This document shows positions 40,442 through 60,976 of a stretch of 64,000 nucleotides of DNA, in pieces (position 1 is the stretch's first letter; every line of letters starts with the position of its first letter). The notes beneath the pieces are model-generated. The model did no database searches. It had not been told where the DNA came from and saw only the letters and a list, made by a program, of their open reading frames with translations. Source of the DNA: Bacteroidales bacterium (GTDB taxonomy: Bacteria; Bacteroidota; Bacteroidia; Bacteroidales; Muribaculaceae); the NCBI GenBank assembly GCA_014800815.1, contig JAAVFI010000049.1, forward strand, positions 1 through 64,000, in the 5' to 3' direction. The position numbers and the translations under genes were made by a program.

Positions 40442-43400
40442 TTAGTCAGCGGTGGATGTTGCTGTACCTTTGTTTTTAATGCGGTAATCTTTCGGGGTCA
40501 TGCCGTAGACCTTGTCGAACTCGCGGTAGAAGTGGGAGCGGTTGTTGAATCCGCTGCGGTAGATAATTTCCTGCACGGTGAGTGATGTTGTAACAAGGAG
40601 TTTGGCGGCAAAGGAAATGCGGTGAGCCTTGATGAAATCGTTAGGCGACGGGAGGTCCAGCTCTTTGAATTTGCGGTAGAGGTTGCGGACACTCACCTGC
40701 ATATGCTGAGCCAGAGTTTCGGGCGAGAGTTCGGCATCGTCGAGGTTTTCGTCGATATAATCCACAATCTTGTTGATAAACTCTTTGCTTTCCTTATCGA
40801 CAAGCTGCCCGCCCGAATATTCGAATGCGCTGGCCGATGAATTGTAGTATTCCTTGAGCACATTGCGGTTTTCGAGCAGACGCACGACAAGCGCACGGAG
40901 ATAGCTCATGTAGAAGGGTTTGGCCACGTAGGCATCGGCACCGCTGGCCAGACCTTCAACTTTATCGTCGCTTGTGTTCTTTGCCGAAAGTATTACAAGG
41001 GGAATATGCGAGGTGTGCTTATTGCCCTTGATCATGCGTGTAAAGCTTATACCGTCGGTTCCGGGCATCATCACGTCGGTAATGATGAGGTCTATCTTGC
41101 CGTCTTTGAGGACTTCCATGCCTTCGTCGGCATTCTTGGCGGTGACAACATTATACTCCGAGAAGCTGTCGGACAACAAGGTAAGAATATCCAGATTGTC
41201 GTCCACCACGAGTATAGTGTTCTTGCCCTTATCAGGTTCGGGTATGAGCTGAGTGTCGATGACGGGCTGCGCAATAATTTCAGAAACGCGTTGCGCGCCG
41301 GTTTGGTCGGGAGTGTCTTTCGTCTCCGTAAATTCGCTACACTTCACCTGCGGCAATGTCACTATAAATTCGGCATATTTACCGGGTTCGCTCTCGATGG
41401 TGATTTTGCCACCAAGCAGAGTCACAAGCATGTGGCAGATAGCCATTCCGAGTCCGTGGCGCGACGAAAGTCCTTTTGAAGCATTCTCCCCCACATTATC
41501 AAATATACGGTAATGGTCGAATATCTTCTCCTTTTCTTCTTTTGTAAGGCCTTTTCCGGTATTATAGATACGGAGTTTCAGTCCGGAGTCCTCCCCGGCC
41601 ACAGCGAAGCGGACTTCCCCTCCTGCATGGGTGTACTTGAACGCATTGGACAGCAGGTTGTTAAGGATTCGTCCAAAGGCGTTGTAGTCGGTATTGAATT
41701 CGATACCCGGCTGAATATCAATGTTGAAATTCACTTTATTCTGCTCAGCGATAACCTTGAACAGCTCGCCGACTTCTTCGCACATTTCGCTGATGTTCAC
41801 AGGAATAATTTTCAAGACCTTAACACCGCCTTCGAACTTACGGAAGTCGATGAGGTCCTGGATGAGCGAGTCGAGACGCTGAGTGTTCATGCGTATCAGG
41901 CCGGCATATTTACGTGTGTTTTCGTCGGGATTACCCGAAGAGAGCAGTCGCTCGCACGAACCGAAAATAAGGGTAAGAGGTGTGCAGAACTCGTGAGTAA
42001 CATTGGTGAAGAAGCTTAGTTTCTGCTCATATACTTCTTCTTTGTGAGCGGCTTCGAGGGCCTCAAGAGCCTGCTTCTGCTTTCTACGCTGGCGGCGGAT
42101 GAACAACAGAAATACTCCGAATACAAAGGTGGCGATAATCAAGAGGTACGCAACTTTGGCATAGACCGTTGCATACCACGGGGCATCTAAGTCGATATAA
42201 AGCACGTAAGGTTCGCTTTCGACATCGGTGGTGAGATCCTCATACTTGAACTGCAGCTTGTACTTACCGTGGGTGAACCGGGTGAAGTTGAGAGTATTGT
42301 CCGAGCCATTGTCTACCCACTTACCGTCGTCGAAAGAATAATAATATCGGTACTGCGACTCGAGTCTGAAGTCGGGCACCATAAACGAGATACGGAAATC
42401 AGTCTCGTCGCTCTTCAGTTTAAGAATCTTTTGCCCCTTGGCATCGGTAACTATATACTTCGCCGTCGACACATTATTTCCGAGCACCGAAAGGTCGAGT
42501 ATCGATATTTCAGGATAATATTTGGTTCCGGACCTATAGTTTTCGTTTCGTGTAAGTATCAGTATTCCTTCGTTTCCGCCAAAGAAAAGTGAACGGTCGG
42601 AGCGGAAAGCCGCGCCGTCGCACAACTCGGTGAAGGGTACTCCGTAGTTCTTTGAGAAAACAAAAGTTTTGTCCGAGCCTTTTTCGAATCTTATCAAGCC
42701 GTGATTGGTAGATAGCCACAAGCCGTTGTGGTCGTCGTTGAGCAAGGCATGTATGGTGCTGTTGAGCAAGGTATTCTTATCTCCAAACTCTACAATACTG
42801 CCGTCGGAGGCAATTTTAATCAGTCCGTTACCGGTGCCGAGCCATATATTTTCACTGTCGCGACTGATAGCATAAATATCGTCGGCAGTTACATCCATAT
42901 CTTCCGGAAAGTCTATTGCACGGACGAGGCTGTCGCCGTCGATAAAGAATACTCCCTGGCCGCGGTTGCCGAAGAGTTCCGGTTGTGATTTGTCGAAGGT
43001 CTGCGTGAAGAAATAATTGGATGATACCTTCGCGCCTTTGATATTGTACTGCTTGATATCGGTAAGTACAGGTGCCGACTCGGGTCCCGAGATGAGTGCC
43101 GTAAACACACCTTCGCCATTGGTGGAAATATATAGCGAGTCGCCCTTCTCAAATACGCTTGAAACCCATCTGAGAGGGATATCACCGGTAGATACCCGAT
43201 GAATCTTGCTGTCTGTGTAGGAATAATAGCAGATGCCGCCGTCCTCACCAATCCAGAATATGGGTCGTGAGCTGGGCGAGAAAGAGTAGACGGAGTTCTC
43301 GGAGAGAGCGCTGTTGGTAGAGTTAAATATGCGCGGTTTCCCTCTTTTCGTAGGATCATTTACATCGAAATCTGTCACAAGGAGCATGCCGTCGCCCTTG

Positions 43401-44473
43401 GTACCGAGCCAAAGATTATTTTGGTCGTCAAGGTAAATTGCACGTACGGGATGACTTATCAGGTCATCAAAATCCTTGAAAGACAAGGCGACAAGGTTAT
43501 ACTTGGAATCGGAATATGTATAAATTCCGTGCGAATCAGTACCGAAACATATCACATTCTGAGGCGAACGTGCCATGCACATCACACCGAAGTTGAGATT
43601 GAGGTCTTCGGGGATGTATTTTCCGTCGGGCTGACGCACAAGCTTGAGCACACCGCTTGTAAAGAACGAAATATATATGTCGCCTGAGTTATCGGTGAGC
43701 ATACTCGAAACTGTTCCGCGTGTTTCGATGCGGTTTCTGAGATCTGCATACTCCACGGGGATATTGTCGCCGGGACGATACTCAAGGACTTTATTGTCGC
43801 TGTCAATAGCGAGGACCGACGAGCCGTTCTCAAAAGCATATTTGATGCTGCGGCCTGATACGGCATAGGGCTTTCCGAGCTTCACCGCTCCCCCGGTTCG
43901 GGTAAGAGGATAGTCGAAAATTCCTTTGGCAGTGAACAGGCGGAGAGCTTTCTCAGATGCGGTATAGTATTTGATGTCAGAATAGTCGATATCGACAGTG
44001 GTGAGATATTCAAACTCCTTGGAGCGTGACTCCGAGAAGTAAGAGAGTACTCCGTTTTCCTGCAGAAGAAATACGATACCGCCTTGGGTTATAACGAGTT
44101 TGTCGGCGCCTCGAAATTGCTTGAAAACATCGGCTTCACCTGTAGCGGGTACTATACGTGTTATGCCGTAGTTGGTCTGCACCCACAGCACATCCTCGTC
44201 CGACTCCTGAACTATCTCAATGATATTGCCCGGGATAACATCAAACTGCGGTAATGTTTTGGTGGATATTATATTGCTACCGTCGTAGGCATCAAGTCCG
44301 TCGAGGGTGCCTATCCACAGCAGACCGTCCGACTGAAAGCAGAGTGAGAGTATCACACTGTTGCTCAATCCGTCGTCGATGCTTAAATGCTTGATATTAT
44401 AGGGTTTGGCAGTAAGCCCAAGCAATAAACAGGCACAAAACAGATAGAATCGTAGGGTCTTTGGTTTAATCAT
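40442..44473 (-). CDS. Hybrid two-component system protein (HTCS): Reg_prop propeller, Y_Y_Y, HisKA/HATPase, receiver, AraC HTH
   Basis: FFTNVTHEFCTPLTLIFG, NLLSNAFKYTHAGGEV, ILVVDDNLDILTLL...DLIITDVMMPGTDG, C-terminal AraC domain; start placed at MIKPKTLRFYLF because the promoter covers the 44503 ATG. Confidence 0.93.
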   Translation of the reverse strand: MIKPKTLRFYLFCACLLLGLTAKPYNIKHLSIDDGLSNSVILSLCFQSDGLLWIGTLDGLDAYDGSNIISTKTLPQFDVIPGNIIEIVQESDEDVLWVQTNYGITRIVPATGEADVFKQFRGADKLVITQGGIVFLLQENGVLSYFSESRSKEFEYLTTVDIDYSDIKYYTASEKALRLFTAKGIFDYPLTRTGGAVKLGKPYAVSGRSIKYAFENGSSVLAIDSDNKVLEYRPGDNIPVEYADLRNRIETRGTVSSMLTDNSGDIYISFFTSGVLKLVRQPDGKYIPEDLNLNFGVMCMARSPQNVICFGTDSHGIYTYSDSKYNLVALSFKDFDDLISHPVRAIYLDDQNNLWLGTKGDGMLLVTDFDVNDPTKRGKPRIFNSTNSALSENSVYSFSPSSRPIFWIGEDGGICYYSYTDSKIHRVSTGDIPLRWVSSVFEKGDSLYISTNGEGVFTALISGPESAPVLTDIKQYNIKGAKVSSNYFFTQTFDKSQPELFGNRGQGVFFIDGDSLVRAIDFPEDMDVTADDIYAISRDSENIWLGTGNGLIKIASDGSIVEFGDKNTLLNSTIHALLNDDHNGLWLSTNHGLIRFEKGSDKTFVFSKNYGVPFTELCDGAAFRSDRSLFFGGNEGILILTRNENYRSGTKYYPEISILDLSVLGNNVSTAKYIVTDAKGQKILKLKSDETDFRISFMVPDFRLESQYRYYYSFDDGKWVDNGSDNTLNFTRFTHGKYKLQFKYEDLTTDVESEPYVLYIDLDAPWYATVYAKVAYLLIIATFVFGVFLLFIRRQRRKQKQALEALEAAHKEEVYEQKLSFFTNVTHEFCTPLTLIFGSCERLLSSGNPDENTRKYAGLIRMNTQRLDSLIQDLIDFRKFEGGVKVLKIIPVNISEMCEEVGELFKVIAEQNKVNFNIDIQPGIEFNTDYNAFGRILNNLLSNAFKYTHAGGEVRFAVAGEDSGLKLRIYNTGKGLTKEEKEKIFDHYRIFDNVGENASKGLSSRHGLGMAICHMLVTLLGGKITIESEPGKYAEFIVTLPQVKCSEFTETKDTPDQTGAQRVSEIIAQPVIDTQLIPEPDKGKNTILVVDDNLDILTLLSDSFSEYNVVTAKNADEGMEVLKDGKIDLIITDVMMPGTDGISFTRMIKGNKHTSHIPLVILSAKNTSDDKVEGLASGADAYVAKPFYMSYLRALVVRLLENRNVLKEYYNSSASAFEYSGGQLVDKESKEFINKIVDYIDENLDDAELSPETLAQHMQVSVRNLYRKFKELDLPSPNDFIKAHRISFAAKLLVTTSLTVQEIIYRSGFNNRSHFYREFDKVYGMTPKDYRIKNKGTATSTAD

Positions 44474-44496
44474 TCTGGAGTGTCTCATGGTATTAG

Positions 44497-44531
44497 CACA
44501 CAAAAATAGTCAACATTTTTGTGTGTACAAA
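44497..44531 (-). promoter_or_regulatory. HTCS promoter embedded in a perfect 11-bp-arm palindrome
   Basis: Minus strand TTTG (44531-44528), 19 nt, TATTTTTG (44508-44501); CACACAAAAAT-N7-ATTTTTGTGTG at 44497-44525. Confidence 0.65.
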
Positions 44532-44547
44532 ATATTATCGACGTGAT

Positions 44548-46416
44548 TTAACCTTCAACATTATCAGAGAATGAATAAGGATAGTCTGCGGCCGCAGTTA
44601 CCCTGTCACCGGCGGGCGACGACGACATCTTATACACCATATCGGCACCGTCGAGCAGAGAATCATACGATATATATGTGCCTGAGTGCTTTATACCGTT
44701 GACAGTCATAGAGGCAATATATGGGTTGGCCTCGGAATTGTCCATAGCCTTGATTGTTATTTTATTGCCATTTTCAAGATGAATTACGGCAGTCTCTACG
44801 CGAGGCGACGTGAGTACATACTGCCCGCTTCCGGGGCAGAGCGGATAGAAGCCGAGAGCGGAGAATACGTAGTCGGCATCGGAAGCGGTATTGTCGGCGA
44901 GGCGGTGCGATACCTCCTGGCACATCCAGGGTCTGTCGGTATAATTATAGAGGCAGGCGAGCTTGACAGAACTGTCTTTGAGGGCGATAAGCGAATCAAG
45001 TTTCTGATTGAAAGCTTCCACACCGCCCAGCGCCGCAATAGTTCCGCGCAGATCGTGGGGAGCGTTGAGCAGGCTTTCGGGTGTGATACAGGTATCGGCA
45101 ACGGTATGGTTGAGAGCACATTCCCTAAATGCGCGGAGTTCATACTCCTGTTTGCCGAGCGATTTACCGAGAGTATATATACACCAATCGTCGTAAGAGT
45201 GCTTGTCGGGGCGCGGAGACTGTTTGCTGTGTGAAGTGTATCTTATTACGTCCCAGAGCATATCCATGTCCTGCGCAAGGAGCCCGTGAGAATACGCATC
45301 GGCCAACAATGCAGGCTCGACATACCTGCAGGCCGAAGCACTTTCGCTATAGGCGTTGGCAAGGCCCTGATGAATTTTGGCGGCTTCGGAGGGATAGAGC
45401 AGATTGAGCATAGGCATCAGCGAACGCAGAGCCTCGTCGCTGTCGACATTAAGGTACATATATCCCTGACCGACCGCTCCGTTGTAGGGACTGAAGTGCA
45501 CGGCCGAGCCATCGGCAAGATACTCATGGACAGTGCGGGGAGCAAGGAGCGCACGGTGGAGACGGGTGTAGAACGTGCGGATGTTGCCGGCATCCTTTCC
45601 TCCGAGAGAGACGCGCGCGAGAGCACGGTTCCAGTCGGCTATACCTTGGTTGCGGACGGCCTCAAAATCGCCTGATACCTCTGCCATATTGCGGTCGGCC
45701 TGCTCAAGACTGATAAATGAACTTGCCACGCGCGCGTGGACGGTCTTGCCGCCGGCGGGAAAACTTATTACGGCACATACATGCCGGCCTGTGCAGGAGT
45801 AATCTGCCGAGAGGGTGTCGCAGTCGGAAACGGTGGCGACGCAGGTGATAGGAGTATCGAATTTGATTACGAAATAATTGCGGAAATCTCCGGGAACGGA
45901 ACCGTTGCCCGCTGCAGAGAACCCGACAATCTTGTTCTCTTCGGGGAGTACCGATACGAAAGAGCCGGCTTCGAGGGCATCAAGCACCACGAAGGCGCTG
46001 TCGGTATCGGGATAGGTAAAGCGCATGAGGGCGGCACGCTCGGTTGCGGCGAGTTCGGCCTTGATACCGCTGTCGAGCAAGTCGGCGCTGATATGGCAGG
46101 GCGAAACCTCGGCAGAATCTACCGTATAAGCCGACGTCGGCATATCTTCGCTGAAAGCCACCAGGGTTGTGGTCGGCATCAGAGAGAATCTGCCGTAGTC
46201 GTCCACGCCGTCGTGAACGATATGCGACTGACAGAAGCCGCAGAATTTTGAGTGCGCATCTGTCCGGACCTTCCACAAGTGCATGCCCAGTGGCATGCCG
46301 AGGCACGTGGACTGTATATTGTCTACATACCGAGCCGGTGAGGAGACGGTCTCTTCTTTAGTACATGTTACTAACAATGTAGCTAAACACAATAGAACAA
46401 ATGCTTTCTTCATCAT
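44548..46416 (-). CDS. GH92-like lipoprotein, divergent (predicted inactive)
   Basis: YDDWCIYTLGKSLGK, LYNYTDRPWMCQ, YVFSALGFYPLCPGSGQYVLTSP align with GH92; lipobox LLVTC followed by TKEE; catalytic motifs absent (see findings). Confidence 0.75.
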   Translation of the reverse strand: MMKKAFVLLCLATLLVTCTKEETVSSPARYVDNIQSTCLGMPLGMHLWKVRTDAHSKFCGFCQSHIVHDGVDDYGRFSLMPTTTLVAFSEDMPTSAYTVDSAEVSPCHISADLLDSGIKAELAATERAALMRFTYPDTDSAFVVLDALEAGSFVSVLPEENKIVGFSAAGNGSVPGDFRNYFVIKFDTPITCVATVSDCDTLSADYSCTGRHVCAVISFPAGGKTVHARVASSFISLEQADRNMAEVSGDFEAVRNQGIADWNRALARVSLGGKDAGNIRTFYTRLHRALLAPRTVHEYLADGSAVHFSPYNGAVGQGYMYLNVDSDEALRSLMPMLNLLYPSEAAKIHQGLANAYSESASACRYVEPALLADAYSHGLLAQDMDMLWDVIRYTSHSKQSPRPDKHSYDDWCIYTLGKSLGKQEYELRAFRECALNHTVADTCITPESLLNAPHDLRGTIAALGGVEAFNQKLDSLIALKDSSVKLACLYNYTDRPWMCQEVSHRLADNTASDADYVFSALGFYPLCPGSGQYVLTSPRVETAVIHLENGNKITIKAMDNSEANPYIASMTVNGIKHSGTYISYDSLLDGADMVYKMSSSPAGDRVTAAADYPYSFSDNVEG

Positions 46417-48005
46417 TATTTGATATATACAAGCTTGCTGTTATGAACATAGATACCGCCTGCCGCCGGCTGCTGCAGACGTACTCCGCTCAATGTAAAC
46501 CATGAATCGGAATCGGAAGTACAGGGAGCGGCGGAGATTTGTCCGACGGAAGATTCCGGATCGAAGGCCGTGACGAGTCCGAGGTCGACATACTGCCCTC
46601 CCCACGACTGCGAGCACTTGACGCACACAATGTTTTTACCCTCTTTGAGAGCCGACGGTGCTATACGGCAATTCTGATAGCCCGAGAGATAGCCGGATTC
46701 GCTGAATACTTCCTGACCGTTAATCCACACGGTCACATCGTCGTCGTGATGAAGGTGGAGCATGAAGTGTTGTCGCTGATACTCTGTGAGCGGGGGAAGC
46801 TCGACTTCACGGCGCAGATAGATTGCCGACGAGGTCCACGAGGTGTTGATGATACCTCCGGGGACATCGCCGTTGCCGAACCCGCCTGTTCCGCTTTTCC
46901 ACTTGAAGCGCTCGACATCAAAGTCATCGTCGAGCCACTTCATGGGAGGCGTAGCCGTGGTATAGTACCACGACTGAGCCTCGGTGTCGGCGGCAGGTAA
47001 GAGTGTGAGAGGAGTATAGTCGTATTCATCGAGAATCTTCTTAAGCTCCTCTTTGGAAATGATCTGAACAGAGCCATGACGCACTCCCGTAGGATTTTTC
47101 ACCTCGCTGTCGGGGATTTGCTGCCATGAGAGTTTTGTAGGGTCGTCGGTACGGGCGTAGCTGAGGCCGGTGCCGTCGTCGAACTTATCGTAGTACATCA
47201 GGTAACCGCCGCCTCCGATGAGGGGGAAGGTCTCCGGCCCCTCGACCTGCGTCCTGTAGTCGGGGAAAAGATTGATTTCGTTGCCGAACTCCTCAACTTT
47301 GGGGTTGAGCGATTTGGTGGTGCGTGCCATGATGCACTTTTTACCATTGCGCTCGTCCTTGTAGAAGCCGTAGTAAGTGTCGCCGCACTTGAGCACTGTC
47401 AGGTCGATAGCCGTGTAGCCGGGATAGAAAAGGACTTCGGGCACGGAGAATTCTTTCCAGTCTCGTGTGGTGCAGTAGTAGTGCACTTCCTGCGAACCGC
47501 CGTCGATAGTCTGACGCGAAGCCCAATAGATATAGAATAGGTCTTCCTCAGGCACATAGAAGAATTCGGGCGCCCAGGCATTGGGAGCTGAGGGGCGGCC
47601 GTCCTTGCCGTCCATAAGCTGAATCTTGGCAGACTCGGGGTCGGTGGTGCCGTCGACAGCCACCCAGTTGACGAGGTCGTCGCTCTCCCAGTGGAATATA
47701 GCGGGATGATCCCAGCCCCATGTGTGCACGAGGTGGAACTTGCTCTCGCCGTTGCGGGTCACGCGGCTTGCATACGGGTCGCGCAGGGCTATGGAATTGT
47801 CGTAGGCGTTGAACACCTGCCCGCCGTCGTTGATATCGTTCCAGTGCAGACCGTCTTCGCTCCAGGCATAGAAAAGATGCTGATCGGAGGGCTTGAAGAA
47901 CGACATGAGATATACACTGTCGGCTTCAGCCGCCGCTTTTTGGGCGACGGCTGAAATCGGAGCCAATGCACAGAGTGCAAGTCCGAATAAGAATCCTGTC
48001 TTCAT
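46416..48005 (-). CDS. Glycoside hydrolase family 43 protein with C-terminal sorting motif
   Basis: ALRDPYASRV, NAWAPEFFYVPEEDLFYIYWAS, VEGPETFPLIGGGGYLMYYD; C-terminus WFTLSGVRLQQPAAGGIYVHNSKLVYIK. Confidence 0.85.
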   Translation of the reverse strand: MKTGFLFGLALCALAPISAVAQKAAAEADSVYLMSFFKPSDQHLFYAWSEDGLHWNDINDGGQVFNAYDNSIALRDPYASRVTRNGESKFHLVHTWGWDHPAIFHWESDDLVNWVAVDGTTDPESAKIQLMDGKDGRPSAPNAWAPEFFYVPEEDLFYIYWASRQTIDGGSQEVHYYCTTRDWKEFSVPEVLFYPGYTAIDLTVLKCGDTYYGFYKDERNGKKCIMARTTKSLNPKVEEFGNEINLFPDYRTQVEGPETFPLIGGGGYLMYYDKFDDGTGLSYARTDDPTKLSWQQIPDSEVKNPTGVRHGSVQIISKEELKKILDEYDYTPLTLLPAADTEAQSWYYTTATPPMKWLDDDFDVERFKWKSGTGGFGNGDVPGGIINTSWTSSAIYLRREVELPPLTEYQRQHFMLHLHHDDDVTVWINGQEVFSESGYLSGYQNCRIAPSALKEGKNIVCVKCSQSWGGQYVDLGLVTAFDPESSVGQISAAPCTSDSDSWFTLSGVRLQQPAAGGIYVHNSKLVYIK

Positions 48006-48009
48006 AATG

Positions 48010-50193
48010 TTACTTTACGATGACTTTACGCTTATGATGAATGTAGATACCGGGGGATGCAGGCTCTGCAATCTTCACGCCCATGAAGGTGTACCATGCG
48101 TCGTCGGCAGTATCTTCGGCCACGAGGACACCTTCGATGCCTGCGAGTTCGGGGTCGGTCTCGCCCGAGAGAGTGAGAGCGATGAAGTCGAAGTCGGCTG
48201 CCGAGCCGGGAGCATTTGTCAGTGCAATCTGATTGGCACCTTGCTTGAGATTTATCTTTACTGTCTCTTCCTTCACGGTACGGTTATTGCCGGTAGAAGG
48301 CAAAGTAGCGGAGTAGTCGGCATTGGCGGTTGAAGCAATCACGTCGGCCGCATCCTTCGAAGCGTAAGCCACTGTCATGTCGTAGCAACCGCTGAGAGGA
48401 ACATCTACCGAGAAGGTGATTTTGCCACCGTCGACGGCACCTGTCACCACAGTCTTGTCGCCGTAGATACTGCTGGGGATAACCTTGGTCTTGGCACCAC
48501 CGGCGAGGGCGGCGTCTTCAGCCTCGTATACGGCAGAATCCCAATACCCGTTTTCGGGAATTACGTAGAGGTAATCGAGGTCTACGCTGTAGGTCTGGCG
48601 GCTCTGCTCGATTGTGATATCGTTGTTGCCTTTGCGGAATACGAGTACAAGAGAGGTCTGGCCCATATTGTTCGACGAGCCGCTGGTAGTGGCGGGAGAG
48701 AATGTATCGGGCTCGTTGCCGTTGACGGTCACTTTAAGATTGGACGCGGGAGTACGCATAGAGTAGCCGAGCACTACGGTGTAGACGCCGGCTTCGGGCG
48801 CATCGTAATGGAAGGTTACGGTATTGCCGGAGAGGAAGTTGGTCACGCGCTTGCCGCCTGAGCACATGGGGTCGTCGACTATCTGGAGAGCATTCTTGTT
48901 GGTCGACTCGAAGTCGGCGTCCTCAGCTTCGAGATAGTTTGCCGAAGTAAATTCTTCTTTAAGAGGGAGCACGATGCAGGTGCTGTTGTTACCGACGAGC
49001 TTCACAGCCTGAGCGCACATCCACTCATATATAGTCCAACCGTTGGGGAAGGATATCTCGTTGCCGGTAAGAGGGCTGTCGCCGACTTTACGGGTTACGG
49101 TCTTGAGATCCCAGAGGTCGTTTTCAACAACGAACATGGAGAATGCGCGGGCGGCTTCCCAGCACCAGTAGCCGTCGGACGAAAGACCGCCGGCAGCATT
49201 GTCGTGCCAACCCTTGAAGTAGCCGTTGGCGTCGAGACGACGGTTTACGATATCGAAGATGATAGTCTCGCACCAGTCCATGTACTTTTCATCGCCGGTA
49301 GCCTGATAGAGGGCGTTAGTAGCCTCGAAGAAAGTAGAATGGTCGTGGAGCGTGCGGCGACCCTGCACGTATTCTTTCTGGTCGCGCTGCTCGCCGCTAT
49401 ATATTCCGTGATACTCGGGATGCCAGCCTTCAGAGACACCTTCTTTGGGCTGACCTGCGTTCTCGAGGTTGTCGTAGTGGTCGTAGAGAGTCGTAGCCAC
49501 CCAGTTCCATATGTTCTTAGCCTTGGTGAGGTAAGATTCGTCGCCGGTTTCTCTGTAGATATAAGCGCCGAGGGCAGCCACACCACTGTTGCTCAGAGGC
49601 GACTTGACCACGTAGTAGAAATTGTTGATTTCGGTGTGAACATTGGGTTTGACCATCCACCAGAGGCCCTTCGAACCGTCATCGGCCGAAACATCGGCCC
49701 ACATATCGCCGGGGCCGTGGCATCCGCGCTCGAAGAGGGTGTCGAACACCGTCTTGGCGCCTTCGAGCCACTCTTCATTGCCCGACACGCGGTAGCCGCG
49801 GATGAGCGAGAGAGCAAGCCAAAGCTGGTCGTCGATATATTCGTTCCAACCCAGGCCCCAGTTGTCGCCGTAGTGAATCTTGAAGCCGCGGCAGAGGTCG
49901 TCGGACATGTGGATAGCGGTGCGGTTTCCTGCAAACTCGGCAAGGTCTTCGGTTGCCATCATGCAGAGGTTCTGCTCCCAGTAGTAGCGGTAGTTGTTGG
50001 AGTTGGCTTCCATCCAGCCTATGTAGGCCTGACCGCCGCTTGAGAAATTTACTTTGAGCTTATTGGCCTTGAAAGCCTCGAACGATTCCATAACCATACG
50101 GTTGACATCGCTCTGATTGCTTATATCTATATCCCTTGCCGAAACTCCGAAGATGCTTGCGGCCATGAGAAGAGTGGAGATAGTCTTTTTCAT
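48010..50193 (-). CDS. GH76-like (alpha-1,6-mannanase family) protein with CBM-like modules and C-terminal sorting motif
   Basis: WNEYIDDQLWLALSLIRGYRVSGNEEWLEGAK; two AED-type beta-sandwich modules; ends WYTFMGVKIAEPASPGIYIHHKRKVIVK; start moved to MKKTISTLLMAASIFG. Confidence 0.75.
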   Translation of the reverse strand: MKKTISTLLMAASIFGVSARDIDISNQSDVNRMVMESFEAFKANKLKVNFSSGGQAYIGWMEANSNNYRYYWEQNLCMMATEDLAEFAGNRTAIHMSDDLCRGFKIHYGDNWGLGWNEYIDDQLWLALSLIRGYRVSGNEEWLEGAKTVFDTLFERGCHGPGDMWADVSADDGSKGLWWMVKPNVHTEINNFYYVVKSPLSNSGVAALGAYIYRETGDESYLTKAKNIWNWVATTLYDHYDNLENAGQPKEGVSEGWHPEYHGIYSGEQRDQKEYVQGRRTLHDHSTFFEATNALYQATGDEKYMDWCETIIFDIVNRRLDANGYFKGWHDNAAGGLSSDGYWCWEAARAFSMFVVENDLWDLKTVTRKVGDSPLTGNEISFPNGWTIYEWMCAQAVKLVGNNSTCIVLPLKEEFTSANYLEAEDADFESTNKNALQIVDDPMCSGGKRVTNFLSGNTVTFHYDAPEAGVYTVVLGYSMRTPASNLKVTVNGNEPDTFSPATTSGSSNNMGQTSLVLVFRKGNNDITIEQSRQTYSVDLDYLYVIPENGYWDSAVYEAEDAALAGGAKTKVIPSSIYGDKTVVTGAVDGGKITFSVDVPLSGCYDMTVAYASKDAADVIASTANADYSATLPSTGNNRTVKEETVKINLKQGANQIALTNAPGSAADFDFIALTLSGETDPELAGIEGVLVAEDTADDAWYTFMGVKIAEPASPGIYIHHKRKVIVK

Positions 50194-50203
50194 GGGATTG
50201 AAT

Positions 50204-52333
50204 TTATCTGATAATGATTTTCTTTTTATTGTGAATATATATACCGGGAGCCGAAGGCTTCTCGATGCAGATGCCGGTGAGAGTGTACCAGCGGTCGTCG
50301 GTATCGCCGGAGTTGTCGGCTGCGACTGCCGATACACCTGCTTCGTCGTCGCGGGAGTCGAGCAGACCGAAGGACGATATCTCTACATTTCCGCCTCCGT
50401 GATTTTCGGTAACTTTGATGCGGTAGTGGCTGAAAGCCTTGCCGTGATTGGGATTCTTCACGGAATAATCCTCGTTGAGAAGGTCGGCTGCACGCAGGCG
50501 CTCCACACTCTCGAAAAGGAAGAGACCGCTGAGCACTACCGACGCATGATAGTCGGGAAGAACGGCCTCACCGCGATCCTGCCAGTTGGCCATAATGGTC
50601 ATGTCGGGCTTGACAAGAGCCGCGAGATAGAGCGAACGGGCATTTTCGAGCAGATAGTTGGTGTAGCGTATCTGATGCTCTTCGTCGAGAAGACCGGAGA
50701 GTACCCAGTCGGTAATGTAGCGGATGTATATGCCTTTGAAGAGGCCGCCGTCGCCCTTTCCGCTCTCACACATTATACCGTTGGGCGAGTACCAGCGGCT
50801 GTCGATGCTCTTGTCGAGGAGGTCGACGGCCACGTCGTAGTATTCCTGATTCTTGGTGGCGCGGTAGAGCTCGAGCAGACCGCCGACCCATGTTCCCTGA
50901 TTGTAGGTGAAAGCCCAGCCGCGATTTTCCTGTGCGGGACTGTCTTTCACAAATCCGTCTTCAAAGAGATTGTGAGCGAGCATGAATTCATATATCTTCT
51001 CGGCCTTTTCGAGGTAATGTTCTTCGCCGGTTTTCTGATAGAGAAGTGCCGCGCAAAGCATTGCAGGAGCATTTGAGCAGGCATTTTTGGAGTCGACGGT
51101 GCCCACGGCGCTGCCATGATTCCAGAGTATGCCGCCCACCGAGGCATCCCAGCCTTCATTCCATATCCAGTCGAAAAGCTGCACGGCTTCGTTGAACCAT
51201 TCTTTGGGAGATATGCGTAGAGTCTCCGAAGCACGGATACATGCGAGGCACATCCAGTCCATATCGTCGAAGAAAGAGTTCCACAGGTCGCGGCGTCCGG
51301 CATCGTATGCCACGTACATACCGGTGCGGATATTGCGGGCGTGGCTTTCGTAGGTGTTCTTGCCGGTGCGGCGATAGGCATCAACGTAAGCGTCGACAGC
51401 GTGGGCCATCCACCAGTAGTTGTAGCCGTTGTTGATGTCGGCGGGTACGGTATTCCATGCGTGAATGAGGTATTTGCCGCCGTTGTAGTCTTTGTAGAAC
51501 TTCTGATCCATCATTGCATGAATCTTGTCGAGGGCATCGCTGAAGTCGATATTGCGGCCAGACTTGCCGAAAGTGTACTCCAGAGCAAAGTTCTGAACGT
51601 CGATGTCGGGCATATTGGCCTGCATGTCGAGAGTTACCCAGTCCTCGCCGTCGTTCGAAGCCTGCAGCTCCCATGCGGCTGGGCGGGTGGTCTTGTTGCC
51701 GGTAGCAGCGCCTCCGAGAGTGTAACCGCCGATAACGAGCGGCTCGTCGAGGTCGTACTGCAGTGATGCGGTCCATGCGTTATCGCCGATTACGCCGTTG
51801 TCGTACGCCTGTTTTGCAACAGTCGCCGTGCCCGGATTTTCGGGATATACCACACGGCTGAAATCGCGGCCGAGGAGCTGAATTTCAGCAATCTGCGCCG
51901 TGCCGCCGCCATTGTTCACCTTATTTACCTCAATCTTGAACTGAGTGTAGGGTGCGTCGGTAGTGGCGCGGGCTGTGGCGTTGGTGTACGGCAACTTATA
52001 GCCGGTAGCCATTACGCGGACTATGATTTTCCAATCTTCGCTGTCGTTGTTTCGGGCGTAGACATATACTCGCGAGGGCGCGGTATTGAGGTCGGCAGCC
52101 GCCACAACATTTACACCCGTCACGGTTACGGGAGTATCGAAGATATACTCTGCCGAGAGGTCGCCGCTGAGAGTCGCCACTGTCATATCGTTGCCGTCGG
52201 TAAGTGCTTCGGGAACGTCGACAGTGCCTCCCGCGAAGTGAGCGCGGGAGAGGATGTTGCTTTCAAATATTGTCTGCTGCCCGTAAACCGAGAGAGCCGC
52301 AGCAGCGATACATAGAGCTGTTAAGCGTTTCAT
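50204..52333 (-). CDS. GH76 protein with N-terminal discoidin-like domains and C-terminal sorting motif
   Basis: FFDDMDWMCLACIRA, KNACSNAPAMLCAALLYQKTGEEHYLEKAEKIYEFM, TYNQGTWVGGLLELYRATKN; ends WYTLTGICIEKPSAPGIYIHNKKKIIIR. Confidence 0.88.
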   Translation of the reverse strand: MKRLTALCIAAAALSVYGQQTIFESNILSRAHFAGGTVDVPEALTDGNDMTVATLSGDLSAEYIFDTPVTVTGVNVVAAADLNTAPSRVYVYARNNDSEDWKIIVRVMATGYKLPYTNATARATTDAPYTQFKIEVNKVNNGGGTAQIAEIQLLGRDFSRVVYPENPGTATVAKQAYDNGVIGDNAWTASLQYDLDEPLVIGGYTLGGAATGNKTTRPAAWELQASNDGEDWVTLDMQANMPDIDVQNFALEYTFGKSGRNIDFSDALDKIHAMMDQKFYKDYNGGKYLIHAWNTVPADINNGYNYWWMAHAVDAYVDAYRRTGKNTYESHARNIRTGMYVAYDAGRRDLWNSFFDDMDWMCLACIRASETLRISPKEWFNEAVQLFDWIWNEGWDASVGGILWNHGSAVGTVDSKNACSNAPAMLCAALLYQKTGEEHYLEKAEKIYEFMLAHNLFEDGFVKDSPAQENRGWAFTYNQGTWVGGLLELYRATKNQEYYDVAVDLLDKSIDSRWYSPNGIMCESGKGDGGLFKGIYIRYITDWVLSGLLDEEHQIRYTNYLLENARSLYLAALVKPDMTIMANWQDRGEAVLPDYHASVVLSGLFLFESVERLRAADLLNEDYSVKNPNHGKAFSHYRIKVTENHGGGNVEISSFGLLDSRDDEAGVSAVAADNSGDTDDRWYTLTGICIEKPSAPGIYIHNKKKIIIR

Positions 52334-54819
52334 AGAGCAAGTTTCTTGGAGAAGGAGGCCGAGCCGCAGTGCACGTTGGCAATGACGATGCCCGAGAGAG
52401 ATGTTTCAATAGTATTGACACCGCCTGAGAGGCTATAGGTGCCTGCAATGCGGCCGTCGAGAGTGAAGATAGTGAGTTCGCCGGCTTCGGCTGTAGTCAC
52501 GGTCACTGTTCCGGCAGAAGCGGTGATTGTGGGTGCGTAATAGGAATTTACGGTTTCGACGCCCGACTCTACGTAGTCGTCGGTAACTTCTGTCATCAGG
52601 AGGATGCGGTCGAATGCCGGAGTATTGGCGTTGTTGCGCGGCGAGATTTTTATGGTGTTGTTTCCTTTCTTGAGATTTACACGGATAGTGGTGAATCCAA
52701 GCGGATCGTGCGAAGACTGCCCGCCCTGGCGGTTGAATGTGTGGTAGGTTGCAGAAGCACCGTTTACCGAAATCGCCGCTGTGGACTGCTCGTTGTTGGT
52801 GTAGAAGAAAGTAAGGGTGTATTCACCGTCTTCTTCCACTTCGATGTCGTCGAAGAATACCGACTGCGAGGAGTTGTTCATCACGCCTGCCTGACGACCC
52901 TGCGAGCACCAGCTGTTGCCCTCGGCATTTACGCCCTGAGTATAGTTCTCGGCTTCGCGACGGATAGTGCGCGGATAGAGGAGGTCGCTGCGGGGCGAGA
53001 TGCACATTACGGCGCCGTCCTGTGCCTTGAGGCTGAGCGAAAGGCGGGTAGCGGATGTCACTTCGCGCTTTTCGAACGCGATGTCGGTGGCATGCACGCC
53101 CTGAGTGTAGATGTATGCGTAGTAGGTGCCGTCGCCTTCGAGGAAGCTGAGGTCTACGGTCTGAGTGCGCGCTTTATCGGAAACGCTTGCCACCCACCAG
53201 TCGTCGCCGGAGCGGCGGGCGATAGTCACATAGCTTTCGGGAGAGGCTGCAAGGCACTTGATATCGTCCCATGTGGTGGGCACCTGACGCAGCAGAGGAG
53301 TCGATTCACGGCCGAGAAGGTTGGATGCACAGTCGCAGATTGTGAGGTGAGCGCTCTCGTAGAGCACAGTGAGTGCAGTCTGATAAGCCCACGAAGTGTT
53401 TGCTATGGCACAGCCGTCGCGCTTACCGTATTTTACGGGAGTATAGTCCATAGGGCCGATTACATTGCGGGTCAGGGCAAGATTCACGCCGTGGCTCGCG
53501 GGGGTAAGGTGGCCCCAGTTCATATACATCTCGCCGCCGTAGTTTGCCTCGGTAGTCATAAGGTGAGGCCAGTAGCGCTCAAGGCCCGAGGGCTTGTTGC
53601 AACCGTGGAAGTTGACCATGAGGCGGCAGTCCGCGCACGCCTGTAGGAGCACCTGATATTTCTCCTGCACGGTCTGAGCGTCGCCGTTGAAGAAGTCGAT
53701 TTTCACACCGGCGATACCGGCGTCGGCCCAACCTTTGAGAATGCGGTAATCGTTGTCGTAGTCATTGTTGAAGCGGTTCTGGTGGCTCCAGAGCAGCACC
53801 TTCACATTCTTCGAGTCGGCGTAGGAAGTAACGTCGGTGAGGCTCACACGGCCGTCCCAGCCTTCGTCGAGGAGGAAGTAAGGCCAGCCCATCGACGAAG
53901 CGAGGTCGATATAGCTCTTGCAGCGGTCGAGTGTCACGTCGTTGCTGCCGTCTTCCGAACCCCAGTCCCATGAAGAGGCGCCGGGCTTTACCCATTCTTC
54001 CCAATCGGTCATCTCGGTATCGGGCACGAGATTCTGAATCATGGTAGACTCCACGATAGTGGGAAGTGTGCCCATCTGCAGGGTACGCCATGCCGAGGTG
54101 AAGTCTGATTTGATCTTGGAAGAACCTTCGGGCTGATAGATAATCTGGCCCTGTGTTTCGCCGGGGAAGATACGCGAGCCGGCCATCTGGTCGAAAAGTC
54201 CGGCCTCGGAGAGAAGGATATACTGAGCGCCCGACTGTATGAGCATCGGGCCGCAGTAGCCGCCTTCATTGGTGAGATTGTTCCATGTGTGGGTATTGTA
54301 GTAGGAGGAGTATCCTTCGCCGTAGTTCTGAACCCATGTACGGGTAAAGGATGCGATGTTGAACTCAGTGTGCTCCTGCGTGAGGCTCATGCCGGGAAGA
54401 TTTGGTATCTCGTAGCGGAATGCCACACCGTCGTCGAACACGCGGAAGCGTACGGTAAGATTGCGGGAAGAAGCTGTGCCCTTTCCGGTCACAGTAAGTT
54501 CGTTATAGTGATTGTGCGCCACAGATACCTTTCCGTGGGGCAGTGCATAATATTCGTCGTTGGAGGCTTCGGTCCATTCGGCACCGTTGGGGAATGTCCG
54601 GAGTTTCATTGCTCCGATAGTGAGGCCGAGGGCTGAAGACTTTACATATTCACGCGAGTTTTTCGCGATAGAGTATTGGAGAGAATTGTCGTCGGTGTAA
54701 GTTACTGTGAGGGTTATCGCACCGTCGGGCGACGAAGTCTGACGCGTCTCTTCTGCGTAGGCATTGGAGGCGCTACACAACGCACCGGTCGCCAAAAGTA
54801 TGTTGAGCAGTTTTTTCAT
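52330..54819 (-). CDS. GH97 protein (retaining alpha-galactosidase-type) with CBM35/6-like module and T9SS type-A-like CTD
   Basis: SusB-like N-domain; AGIAGVKIDFFNGD nucleophile region; VNFHGCNKPSGLERYWPHLMTTEA; ends in IFTLDGRIAGTYSLSGGVNTIETSLSG...KKLAL. Confidence 0.88.
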   Translation of the reverse strand: MKKLLNILLATGALCSASNAYAEETRQTSSPDGAITLTVTYTDDNSLQYSIAKNSREYVKSSALGLTIGAMKLRTFPNGAEWTEASNDEYYALPHGKVSVAHNHYNELTVTGKGTASSRNLTVRFRVFDDGVAFRYEIPNLPGMSLTQEHTEFNIASFTRTWVQNYGEGYSSYYNTHTWNNLTNEGGYCGPMLIQSGAQYILLSEAGLFDQMAGSRIFPGETQGQIIYQPEGSSKIKSDFTSAWRTLQMGTLPTIVESTMIQNLVPDTEMTDWEEWVKPGASSWDWGSEDGSNDVTLDRCKSYIDLASSMGWPYFLLDEGWDGRVSLTDVTSYADSKNVKVLLWSHQNRFNNDYDNDYRILKGWADAGIAGVKIDFFNGDAQTVQEKYQVLLQACADCRLMVNFHGCNKPSGLERYWPHLMTTEANYGGEMYMNWGHLTPASHGVNLALTRNVIGPMDYTPVKYGKRDGCAIANTSWAYQTALTVLYESAHLTICDCASNLLGRESTPLLRQVPTTWDDIKCLAASPESYVTIARRSGDDWWVASVSDKARTQTVDLSFLEGDGTYYAYIYTQGVHATDIAFEKREVTSATRLSLSLKAQDGAVMCISPRSDLLYPRTIRREAENYTQGVNAEGNSWCSQGRQAGVMNNSSQSVFFDDIEVEEDGEYTLTFFYTNNEQSTAAISVNGASATYHTFNRQGGQSSHDPLGFTTIRVNLKKGNNTIKISPRNNANTPAFDRILLMTEVTDDYVESGVETVNSYYAPTITASAGTVTVTTAEAGELTIFTLDGRIAGTYSLSGGVNTIETSLSGIVIANVHCGSASFSKKLAL

Positions 54820-54922: not shown

Positions 54923-57460
54923 TTAGCGGATAACGATCTTGCATACAGTGTTCTCTACCTTGAGGATGTAGAGGCCTGCAGCGAGAGTTACGGTTGCAGT
55001 TCCGTCGGCGAGCTTACCTGCGGCTACTTCTGCACCTGCGAGGGTGTAGACAGCGTAGGTGTTGCCGGCTTCAGCGGCGATAGTGAGTTCGCCGCCTGCG
55101 ATAGCGTAAGTGAAGGCGGGAGCAATAGCGTCGGCTACACCGGTGGGAATGTCGGGAGTAGCGTAGAGCTGGAATGCACCGAGGGCGGGATTGGAGATTT
55201 CGTCGCCGGTCATTTCGAGTTTAACAGCCTTTACAGCGGCAGCGCGAGCTTTGAAGCGTGCGGTTTCTTCGGCTTCGGCAGCGGGTGTGAATGTAGCCAC
55301 AATACCGCGTGAGCTCAGAGCTACGTCGCCTTCGAGAGCCTTGAATTCGCCTGCATCGGCAGAAGTGCTTACAGTCCATTCTTCCTTACCCTTGGTTGTA
55401 GAAGCCCATACAACCTTGTCGATGAATACGGGAGTGTCGAATACCTTGGTGATAGTTGCGGTGGGAGCAGTTGCGACAGCCTGGTTGTACTCGTTGTTAT
55501 CCCAGATTGCGGCGGCATTTTCGAAGTTTTCAACAGTCACTTCTTCGGCAGAAGCGAGATTGTTTTCGTTTTCTTCGATTTCGGGAGTTACTTCCTCGTC
55601 GGCGATAGTGTACCATGCGCCGATATTGATGGGTTCGAGTTCGAAGCAGTCAACGGGAGTAGCATATCCGGTAGTACCGTGAGTGATAGCGATGATATTG
55701 AGGCCTTCTTTAAGTTCGAGTACGGTAGAAGCTATACCGTTGCCCTGATCCCAGGCTGTTGCATTGTCGGGAGCATTAACGAGAACTTTAGCCTTACCGA
55801 GTACCTGTACATAGGTATCGCGGGCACCGTTCATTGCCACCTTGTGCCAGAGGCGCATCTGGTACATACCGGCCTCTTTTACATTTACGGTATAGTAAGC
55901 GGCAGCGGCTTCATTGTCGAAACCAACTACCTGACCGCCGTGGAATCCGGGCAGGGGTTCGTGTGCGCAGTTTTCAGCGAAGTAGTAAGCTTCAGCCTCG
56001 CTGAAGTAGCGTGCGCCTGCGAAGTCGCTTTCCTGGAGAGTCGAATTGGCATCTTCGAGGAACACGAATTTACCGATACCGGGCATGAAGTCGTTGTTGT
56101 GGCGGGCGAGAACAAAAGTGTTCACACCTTCGTTGAGCCATACCTTAACGCTGGTTTCGCCGGTGCAGGCAGCGAGAGTCTTATCCCATGTACCATTGTT
56201 GGCGCTGCGGAGAATGTTGGGTTTCTGGTCGTTGACCTGAGTGAAGAAAGCACGCTCACCCGCACAGGCGGTGTAAGCGGTAAGAGTGTAGACACCGGCC
56301 TTGGGAGCTTCGAAGGTGTACTTGGCACCGATAGTTGCGCGGTCGGCGGCAAATTCATCGTAGCCGTAACCGAACTTACCACCACCTTCGCCGAGTACTT
56401 CATTAGCTATTGAAAGGTTGAAGGGAACATATCCTTCGGTTTCGTGACCGTCAAACTCTACGGCGAGAAGTTCGATGCGGGCAATGGTCTCGAGCTTTTC
56501 GTTGGCGGTAAACCAGGGTGCGTCGATAGCCTCGATCTCGAAGCAGTCTACAATGGGAGCATAGCCATTATGACCCTTGAATGTGAGTTTGTTAGCACCG
56601 GCTTCAAGATAGAGGGGGAGATTTACAGTAGCGTTTGCGCTATCCCAATTTGATGAGTATCCGGGAACACCGTTGAGCTCGTAGGGAAGATAGCCGTCTA
56701 CCTCTACCTGCATATCGCGGTTCTGCATAGTGCAGTACCAGATACGCATGAGATAAGCGCCGGCCTTGTCTACGTTTACGGTATATGAGGCGGTGTTGCC
56801 GTTGTCAAGGCCTACGCCTGTACCGGCAGCGGCTGTAGTGTGGCTGAAGTTAGGACGATTTTCGAGACCGGCAGAGTGTTCGTCGCAGTCCTCGGCTTCA
56901 ACAAAAATAGCTTTGGTGGCTTCGAGAGCTTCTCCTTCGGCTTTTGTCAATTCAAACTTATAGATGTTGGGGAGATATGCGTTCTGAGAAGCGCCGTTCA
57001 AGAATATGCGGCAAGGTTCGATAGTAATGGTATTCTCACCGGCTTCGAGAGCCACACGCATGGTAGACTTGGCTGTAGCATTCTCCCAATTCCAATCACC
57101 TGAAGTCTCTGCATGTATGAGGGCTGCCTTGGCGTCGTTTACCTTTGCGTAGATGTAGCGGTCGAACTGCATGTTGGCGTAGAAGATGTCAAGGTCGTAA
57201 ACACCTGCAGCGTCAACTGTGAAAGTATAGGTTGCGTGGCGGCCGTTACCTTGGGCATAGTCAGAATAATATGCTTGCCAGTTTTCACCATTCTCCTGGC
57301 CGAGCATTTCAGAGGCTGTGTTCATACCCACGGTAGCTACAGTGGGCGCGGGGAGATTGTCGGCGGTAGCTTTTGTACCCGCCTGGAAAACGATGTCGGC
57401 GGCATTAGCTGCAGGAGCGAGAGCTGCTGCGCCGAGAAGAGTTAGTAAAATTTTGTTCAT
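54923..57460 (-). CDS. Multi-CBM (CBM6/35-like) secreted protein without catalytic domain, T9SS-like CTD
   Basis: Repeated 'AED...YTVNV..AG.Y.MR.W........V.V......A...L.EG.N......G..PVDCFE' modules; ends YTLAGAEVAAGKLADGTATVTLAAGLYILKVENTVCKIVIR. Confidence 0.75.
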   Translation of the reverse strand: MNKILLTLLGAAALAPAANAADIVFQAGTKATADNLPAPTVATVGMNTASEMLGQENGENWQAYYSDYAQGNGRHATYTFTVDAAGVYDLDIFYANMQFDRYIYAKVNDAKAALIHAETSGDWNWENATAKSTMRVALEAGENTITIEPCRIFLNGASQNAYLPNIYKFELTKAEGEALEATKAIFVEAEDCDEHSAGLENRPNFSHTTAAAGTGVGLDNGNTASYTVNVDKAGAYLMRIWYCTMQNRDMQVEVDGYLPYELNGVPGYSSNWDSANATVNLPLYLEAGANKLTFKGHNGYAPIVDCFEIEAIDAPWFTANEKLETIARIELLAVEFDGHETEGYVPFNLSIANEVLGEGGGKFGYGYDEFAADRATIGAKYTFEAPKAGVYTLTAYTACAGERAFFTQVNDQKPNILRSANNGTWDKTLAACTGETSVKVWLNEGVNTFVLARHNNDFMPGIGKFVFLEDANSTLQESDFAGARYFSEAEAYYFAENCAHEPLPGFHGGQVVGFDNEAAAAYYTVNVKEAGMYQMRLWHKVAMNGARDTYVQVLGKAKVLVNAPDNATAWDQGNGIASTVLELKEGLNIIAITHGTTGYATPVDCFELEPINIGAWYTIADEEVTPEIEENENNLASAEEVTVENFENAAAIWDNNEYNQAVATAPTATITKVFDTPVFIDKVVWASTTKGKEEWTVSTSADAGEFKALEGDVALSSRGIVATFTPAAEAEETARFKARAAAVKAVKLEMTGDEISNPALGAFQLYATPDIPTGVADAIAPAFTYAIAGGELTIAAEAGNTYAVYTLAGAEVAAGKLADGTATVTLAAGLYILKVENTVCKIVIR

Positions 57461-57479
57461 GATAATTTTAGGTTTGTGG

Positions 57480-57516
57480 ATAGTGAGGATGTTGACCTGA
57501 GCAACACCCTCACTAT
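57480..57516. other. Long intergenic hairpin between the two multi-CBM genes
   Basis: ATAGTGAGG-a-TGTTG / CAACA-c-CCTCACTAT, 14 bp with one mismatch, 7-nt loop. Confidence 0.85.
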
Positions 57517-57531
57517 ATTTTAAGCTATTGA

Positions 57532-59815: not shown

Positions 59816-60952
59816 TCAGAGTACCTCGACGGTATGTTTGTAGTTGTCGAGCTCGCCTTCGTTGTTCAGGTCGACAGTGATGAGGAGGTCGTGGTCGATC
59901 TGGAAGTTGTTTGCATTACCGAAACGGAAGCAGAACGAAGTGCCGGCATCGGCGCAGCGGTAGAGGTCGAAGTAGTCGGCAGGAGTATTGGCTGTCTGCG
60001 ACTGAGCGTTGGAGCGGAGATATCCGAAGTAGATATCGCGGGTGTCGCCTTCGGTATTGGTCTCGTTGACGATAAACTTGTAGGTGTAGGTATTTCCCAC
60101 GCGGGTGAAGTGGTATGTACCCTGCCATGTGGCATCATTACCTGCGAGGAGGGGAAGCTCTACGGGGTTCTGAGCGTCGCCCAGATAGAGGAGCGATACG
60201 CTGTTGACCGTAGCGAGGGTACCCTCGGAGGTGTTGAAGTCGGCCAGGATGTGGGTTACTGTGCCGCCCTTGGGAGCGTGGATTGTTCCGCCGGGGATGA
60301 GTTTGTCGCCGCTTACAGAGAAGTTGCGGGTCTTGCCGCCGGCCATGCGCTCGGTGATTTTGTATTCACCTTCCGAGAGGGTGGTGAAAATCTCGAAGCG
60401 ACCGAAATCAACGAGCTTCATGGTGATGAACTCACCGGAAGGAGTCTCGAGGAAGAGGTGCTCGGGGTTGTAAGCGAAGCCGTCGGGACGGTTAATGGTG
60501 AGTTTGTGCACCTCATCGCTCTGCATGTCGGTTACGCCCGTATTTGCCTTCACGGTCCAGTACACTGTGCCTTCGGCATCTTGAGGGATACCGCCGAGCT
60601 CGGCTATGATATTGAGTTCGCTCGGTGAGATCTCAACATTTGTTTCGGTACCGAAGTTGAGAGACTCAAGTTCGTAGTACACGTCGCTCATATCCGCCTT
60701 GGTAGCGAAGATCACCTTGTAGAATACGAGAGTGTGGTCGTTGGTGCGCGACGGTGTCCACTCTATCACGAGGTCTTCGGCATCTGCATCGGCAGCATCG
60801 TAGGTGACATCACCTGTGGTGATCTCAAACTCGGTGAGTTCGGTATCGTGAGTATTGGTCCAGTCGTAGCTTGTGCAGGAAGAGAGCCAACCTGTGGCAG
60901 CTACTGCCAGTGCCATTGCCAATGATTTATTTATAGTTTTCATTATTTTCAT
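59816..60952 (-). CDS. SusE-like outer-membrane surface lipoprotein
   Basis: Lipobox WLSSC; SusE-type Ig-like N-domain 'LVIEWTPSRTNDHTLVFYKVIFATKADMSDVYYELESLN...EGTVYWTVKAN'; between susD-like gene and surface proteins. Confidence 0.82.
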   Translation of the reverse strand: MKIMKTINKSLAMALAVAATGWLSSCTSYDWTNTHDTELTEFEITTGDVTYDAADADAEDLVIEWTPSRTNDHTLVFYKVIFATKADMSDVYYELESLNFGTETNVEISPSELNIIAELGGIPQDAEGTVYWTVKANTGVTDMQSDEVHKLTINRPDGFAYNPEHLFLETPSGEFITMKLVDFGRFEIFTTLSEGEYKITERMAGGKTRNFSVSGDKLIPGGTIHAPKGGTVTHILADFNTSEGTLATVNSVSLLYLGDAQNPVELPLLAGNDATWQGTYHFTRVGNTYTYKFIVNETNTEGDTRDIYFGYLRSNAQSQTANTPADYFDLYRCADAGTSFCFRFGNANNFQIDHDLLITVDLNNEGELDNYKHTVEVL

Positions 60953-60976
60953 GAATAGTTTAGCGGTTGATGCTCA

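Follow-up and report, generated by a model that had tools for sequence, protein, structure and literature searches.

The window, by which we mean the whole 64,000-nucleotide stretch of Muribaculaceae DNA that was analysed, carries a PUL read from a single strand (Table 1), in which the GH92-like protein studied here, P0001, is encoded together with GH43-like, GH76-type and GH97 proteins, two CBM-type proteins and SusE-like and SusD lipoproteins; SusC lies after SusD on the same strand and continues past the window end. The GH76 family acts on the alpha-1,6-mannan backbone, and because this backbone family is accompanied by a GH97 closest to an alpha-galactosidase model, a galactose-decorated alpha-mannan is a reasonable guess at the substrate from gene content. 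The GH43-like protein falls below the Pfam GH43 cut-off and bears a C-terminal extension that is absent from its relatives in other Muribaculaceae loci. The genome holds one other GH92, a full-length protein of 720 aa from another clade, encoded on the opposite strand of the same contig about 24 kb away and beyond the window end (L095:10316-12478); it keeps both acid (Glu531) and base (Asp634) and has no counterpart of His584-Glu585. Also present are an alpha/beta hydrolase and GDSL esterase fusion adjoining a GH3 gene upstream of SusC (L095:8533-10137), a group II intron reverse transcriptase/maturase close to where the contig stops (L095:12587-13867), and, within the window, a 2481-aa SprA_N protein of the type IX secretion translocon family (199-7644, minus strand) and a Schlafen AlbA_2 domain protein (27208-28161, minus strand).

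Table 1. Features of the GH92-like gene and its PUL, in window coordinates (residue numbers are those of P0001 unless BT3990 is named)
Feature	Position	Strand	Basis or remark
GH92-derived, loop-stripped predicted lipoprotein P0001, 622 aa	44548..46416	(-)	ORF, Pfam, predicted model
Signal peptide, lipobox (LLVTC, Cys18) and LES-like TKEE, residues 1-22	46351..46416	(-)	sequence
Deletion junction, BT3990 33-45 (GSQSTFELSTGNTYP loop), between residues 37 and 38	46305..46306	(-)	alignment; identical boundaries in P0002
Deletion junction, BT3990 62-71 (GDGWQYTY loop), after residue 53	46257..46258	(-)	alignment; identical boundaries in P0002
F-C-G-F-C-Q-S-H, residues 58-65; Cys59 and Cys62 new, common only to P0002	46222..46245	(-)	alignment
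Cys107-His108, new, common only to P0002; Tyr-Tyr in GH92 enzymes	46093..46098	(-)	alignment
DSDEALR replacing GFWDTFR, residues 325-331	45424..45444	(-)	alignment
Deletion junction, BT3990 389-400 (GHRGCMVGNN, incl. Cys393, Met394), after Pro368	45312..45313	(-)	identical boundaries in P0002
Shortened acid region, residues 438-453; BT3990 509-541 incl. Glu533 absent; following HD kept	45058..45105	(-)	
Remnant of BT3990 570-608, residues 478-486; 579-605 incl. His584, Glu585, NYAHGNQP absent	44959..44985	(-)	
Former base motif, residues 504-516, end LADNTASDADY	44869..44907	(-)	Asp508 at Asp644 position; Asp642, GQ, Trp lost
HTCS hybrid two-component regulator, next gene downstream of the GH92-like gene, same strand	40442..44503	(-)	Pfam
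GH43-like protein, TAATG overlap with the GH92-like gene	46416..48005	(-)	74% identical to sister-locus counterpart
GH76-like with CBM6/35-like domain, start re-set to ATG 50193	48010..50193	(-)	Pfam
GH76 (endo-alpha-1,6-mannanase family) with F5/8 C domain	50204..52333	(-)	Pfam
GH97, nearest NCBIfam model retaining alpha-galactosidase, below cut-off	52330..54819	(-)	
Two CBM35/F5-8 type C proteins (54923-57460, 57532-59742)	54923..59742	(-)	
SusE-like (59816-60952) and SusD (60977-62878) lipoproteins	59816..62878	(-)	

The GH92-like gene is an intact frame of 622 codons, and its start codon overlaps the stop codon of the GH43-like gene that precedes it. Both GH92 Pfam domains score far above their gathering scores (Glyco_hydro_92, PF07971, 1e-52, 180 bits against 24.6; Glyco_hydro_92N, PF17678, 2e-32, 113 bits against 34.5), the NCBIfam GH92 model is passed at 253.9 bits (cut-off 249.55), and the top phmmer match in the PDB is BT3990 (E 2e-105), in an alignment broken into several blocks by gaps tens of residues long. 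With the fold landmarks also kept, the sequence-only reading was right to call P0001 a GH92 homologue, and right that it is more than 100 residues shorter than is typical, as its 91 closest GH92 homologues measure 735-858 aa (median 774), a shortfall of about 110-150 residues. Pfam found no carbohydrate-binding module in P0001. AlphaFold2 predicts the two-domain GH92 fold (pLDDT 81.6, pTM 0.87), as it does with somewhat higher scores (86.4 and 0.89) for P0002, the relative described below; Foldseek places BT3990 and then BT2199 at the top for both models (TM 0.86-0.88 over the query), followed by other solved GH92s, and the P0001 model superposes on BT3990 with TM 0.87-0.88. Since the input alignment contained GH92 enzymes, the models speak for compatibility with the fold and are not independent proof of it; the deletion junctions are among their weakest stretches.

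The extent of the loss is apparent when P0001 is aligned with BT3990 and 90 GH92 homologues of full length (the 91 sequences above), an alignment in which BT3990 chain index plus 19 gives the published numbering (514 = Glu533, 623 = Asp642, 625 = Asp644), in agreement with the catalytic residues of PMC5930347 and PMC10167667. About 144 BT3990 positions lack a counterpart in P0001, and eight blocks of pocket-facing loops are deleted; the missing BT3990 segments are 33-45, 62-71, 389-400, 430-458, 509-541, 579-605, 632-642 and two short ones. Among the 91 homologues, a single one shows an internal deletion of at least 8 residues when compared with BT3990, at a different place (214-227), while the positions deleted in P0001 are gapped in other homologues at a rate of only 0.5%. 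P0001 keeps 88 of the 199 near-invariant columns, defined as at least 95% one residue (44%), against at least 91% in each of the 91 active-type homologues (median 99.5%), and 52 of these columns fall in the deletions where 39.0 would be expected (hypergeometric p = 0.005, the columns not being independent of one another).

The consequences for the active site are severe. The general acid Glu533, Glu in 100% of the 91 homologues, lies in a column deleted from both P0001 and P0002, and the shortening that the sequence-only reading had claimed for the acid segment is thus confirmed. Among the residues to which PMC5930347 assigns -1 and +1 subsite roles, Met394 (-1) and His584 and Glu585 (+1) are deleted from both proteins, whereas Trp88, Asp348 and Trp385 are replaced in P0001 by Gly, Glu and Tyr; all six are deleted or substituted in P0002 as well. 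With regard to the Ca2+ site, the invariant 579-605 segment is absent together with its Glu588, His599, Asn601 and Gln602. The WDTFR segment, described earlier as gone, is in fact aligned but substituted, with its Arg kept, Trp347 lost and Asp348 changed. The base motif is degraded as claimed, having lost its second Asp (Asp642), Gly646-Gln647 and Trp651 from the G-Q-x-S-A-W context, but the position exactly 8 residues ahead of YVF is an Asp in BT3990 (Asp644), P0001 and P0002 (Asp508 in both), and the statement that both catalytic motifs are lacking therefore holds for the motifs and not strictly for the base residue. Every named block other than 509-541, that is 33-45, 62-71, 389-400, 430-458, 579-605 and 632-642, and the Trp88 and Trp385 substitutions are losses beyond those first noticed. 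Together, the missing acid loop and subsite residues strongly support the proposal that P0001 would no longer act as a GH92 enzyme.

This stripped state is more than a one-off, because its ancestry is shared with a second genus. P0002, a 623-aa protein with 45% identity to P0001, is encoded in a Muribaculaceae metagenome-assembled genome (L006) whose genus differs from that of the window genome; it lacks the same loop blocks, three of them with identical boundaries. Both loci have the order GH97-GH76-GH76-GH43-like-GH92-like-HTCS, and in each of them CBM-type proteins are encoded upstream. A 60-sequence tree joins P0001 and P0002 in a clade (100% SH-aLRT, stem of 1.08 changes per site), so the deletion does mark a clade, one of two members; the full-length GH92s nearest to it by path are largely from Muribaculaceae, its exact sister group being uncertain because the end branches are long. 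Independently of the tree, the shared deletions and gene order support one origin, and the loop-stripped state, as read from these sequences, is inherited in two genera from a common ancestor. A sequencing or assembly artefact was rejected, as independent assemblies from the two genera agree. No third member was found: searches of the family, of two genera and of the order with P0001 or P0002, which overlapped, took in some 800-900 different genomes and considered a small number of candidates in each, returned only the one further species, and a scan of 84,980 genomes for exact peptide patterns gave one same-length match, again L006. In the six loci inspected for the GH43-like protein, its other relatives had unrelated surroundings and no GH92-like gene beside them. 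We regard P0001 as very probably an inherited pseudoenzyme rather than a GH92 alpha-mannosidase. Because the stripped form and its gene order recur in a second genus, a retained non-enzyme is the most likely reading, in preference to a dying gene.

Where the protein acts is suggested by its N-terminus. The lipobox and CTKEE tail first noticed are both there (LLVTC, Cys18, followed by T-K-E-E), and CTKEET fits exactly the optimal surface-export signal C-X-K-(D/E)2-X (PMC5080379). The proposed surface export is accordingly supported for P0001, which likely resides on the surface side of the outer membrane in the window species, but does not carry over to P0002, where the lipobox Cys is present and the sequence reads CNNGKT; with no acidic export signal in this copy, exposure at the surface may not hold for both members. 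Among the extracytoplasmic proteins of the PUL, lipoprotein N-termini are confined to SusD, the SusE-like protein and P0001. The GH43-like protein and the two GH76-type proteins have non-lipoprotein signal peptides and similar short tails (WYTLxG...PGIYIHNxKKxIIK), and the CBM proteins match weakly to a T9SS sorting domain. PUL proteins with such tails may be type IX cargo, in which case the GH92-like protein would be among the few lipid-anchored members.

What, then, might a glycosidase relative without its pocket do, presumably at the outer membrane? We lean toward a non-catalytic lipoprotein of an alpha-mannan-type PUL that takes part in glycan capture or complex assembly, because the lipoprotein stays with importer and enzymes and keeps its scaffold while the pocket is lost. 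Its 45% identity between the two loci, lower than the 56-74% of the neighbouring enzymes and inside the 37-50% of the CBM-type proteins, points the same way. The gene would descend from a BT3990-like alpha-1,2-mannosidase of Muribaculaceae which, after duplication or transfer, lost the pocket-lining loops of both domains and kept the beta-sandwich, the barrel helices and the domain interface. Its product would be exported as an outer-membrane lipoprotein anchored through Cys18, made together with the SusCD-type importer, the two GH76-type proteins, the GH97 and the GH43-like enzyme, and would hold glycan or assemble an enzyme/importer complex at the membrane through a working surface other than the old pocket. 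Against such a role stand the missing carbohydrate-binding module, the P0002 N-terminus without acidic signal, the failure of the inactive GH18-like BT1284 to bind its expected glycan measurably (PMC11180146), and the Asp that persists at the base position. The mannoside binding first suggested for P0001 is, in its natural form, unsupported: the pocket in which it would occur is gone, and mannose binding there is disfavoured because the sugar-contacting residues are lost from both members and conservation on that face is poor: the surrounding residues 361-400 and 441-515 are those in which P0001 and P0002 agree least (20-34% identity). By comparison, the highest identities listed, 64-69%, fall in residues 151-200 and 516-560, although with only two members known, conserved surface sites cannot be mapped well.

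Of the alternatives, the one that fares best is a protein-protein partner or regulator that binds no glycan, acting for instance on the translationally coupled GH43-like protein or on the periplasmic sensor of the HTCS. The stop-start overlap joins the gene to that of the GH43-like protein, which is better conserved (74%) than any other PUL protein, the HTCS gene follows immediately in each locus, and a pseudoenzyme of the BT1284 type showed no glycan binding (PMC11180146); yet adjacency is common in PULs, and we consider this role unlikely. Appreciably less probable is a new functional site on the beta-sandwich of the pocketless scaffold, marked by Cys59, Cys62, His65, Cys107 and His108. Were it real, a retired mannosidase fold would have taken up a new job in the uptake of glycan at the outer membrane, based on a metal or a disulfide or on some other ligand than before.

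It is also possible to imagine that P0001 is still a glycosidase, perhaps for a different glycan, with Asp508 as base and another acidic residue standing in for Glu533. The conserved Asp644 spacing in both members, the acidic residues near the shortened loop in each (TPESLL, SIETPV) and the residual activity of the alanine and glutamine variants of BT3990 Glu533 (PMC10167667) point that way, but the acid loop, Asp642, segment 579-605 and the -1 and +1 contacts are all lost, the candidate acidic residues are unaligned between P0001 and P0002, and the surroundings of the old pocket are the least conserved part of the protein, which makes such relocated catalysis improbable. Least probable of all is a relic in decay, that is, a gene whose GH92 function is being lost and whose frame is open by chance. 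This would fit the rarity of the protein (two members found) and its fast evolution (45% identity against 56-74% in the neighbouring enzymes) but not the same deletions, gene position and intact frames (622 and 623 codons, no stop in either) in two genera, nor a pN of 0.37 beside saturated synonymous sites (pS 0.80, for which reason dN/dS is not computable), nor the 36 positions, Cys59, Cys62, Cys107 and His108 among them, that are common to P0001 and P0002 and almost absent in the 91 GH92s. A gene drifting freely over such a time would be expected to be broken.

Gut-microbiome surveys count GH92 genes as alpha-mannosidases, and P0001, which scores above the cut-off of the NCBIfam GH92 model, would be annotated as an enzyme though it appears to lack the machinery of one. 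It offers a clean natural case in which a glycosidase pocket is lost through many loop deletions and the fold is kept. Compared with the GH92 alpha-1,2-mannosidases BT3990 and BT2199 (PDB 2WVX, 2WVY), P0001 is predicted to share the beta-sandwich and (alpha/alpha)6 barrel, with 26-35% identity in the Foldseek alignments and the fold landmarks kept, but it differs in the lost acid and in all six subsite positions.

Two known systems help to place a non-catalytic P0001. First, SusCD importers form outer-membrane complexes with GH and SGBP lipoproteins, as in the levan and dextran utilisomes (PMC7618045). As a predicted outer-membrane lipoprotein encoded with SusCD, P0001 would resemble the SGBPs and may belong to a complex of this type; the levan SGBP, however, is a multi-domain binding protein, whereas P0001 has a predicted glycosidase fold. 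Second, and as the closest precedent, Bacteroidales PULs encode inactive GH18-like proteins, namely BT1284 and its homologues, which occur in 20 or more species; catalytic impairment was seen in BT1284 and in an orthologue from B. faecium, and BT1284 gave no measurable binding of the expected glycans (PMC11180146). Both cases involve an impaired, or in P0001 presumably impaired, glycosidase relative kept in a mannose-glycan PUL across species, two species for the loop-stripped GH92-like protein as against those 20 or more. They are alike only in kind, since P0001 is GH92 in sequence and predicted fold and not GH18: in the GH18 TIM barrel residues are substituted, whereas in P0001 whole loops are deleted. 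In the open-access literature searched, no GH92 pseudoenzyme is described; inactive glycosidase relatives in Bacteroidales PULs are already known, and what is new here is the size and number of the deletions as opposed to substitutions. GH92 would thereby join GH18 as a family with retained inactive PUL members, which bears on the role that such proteins play there.
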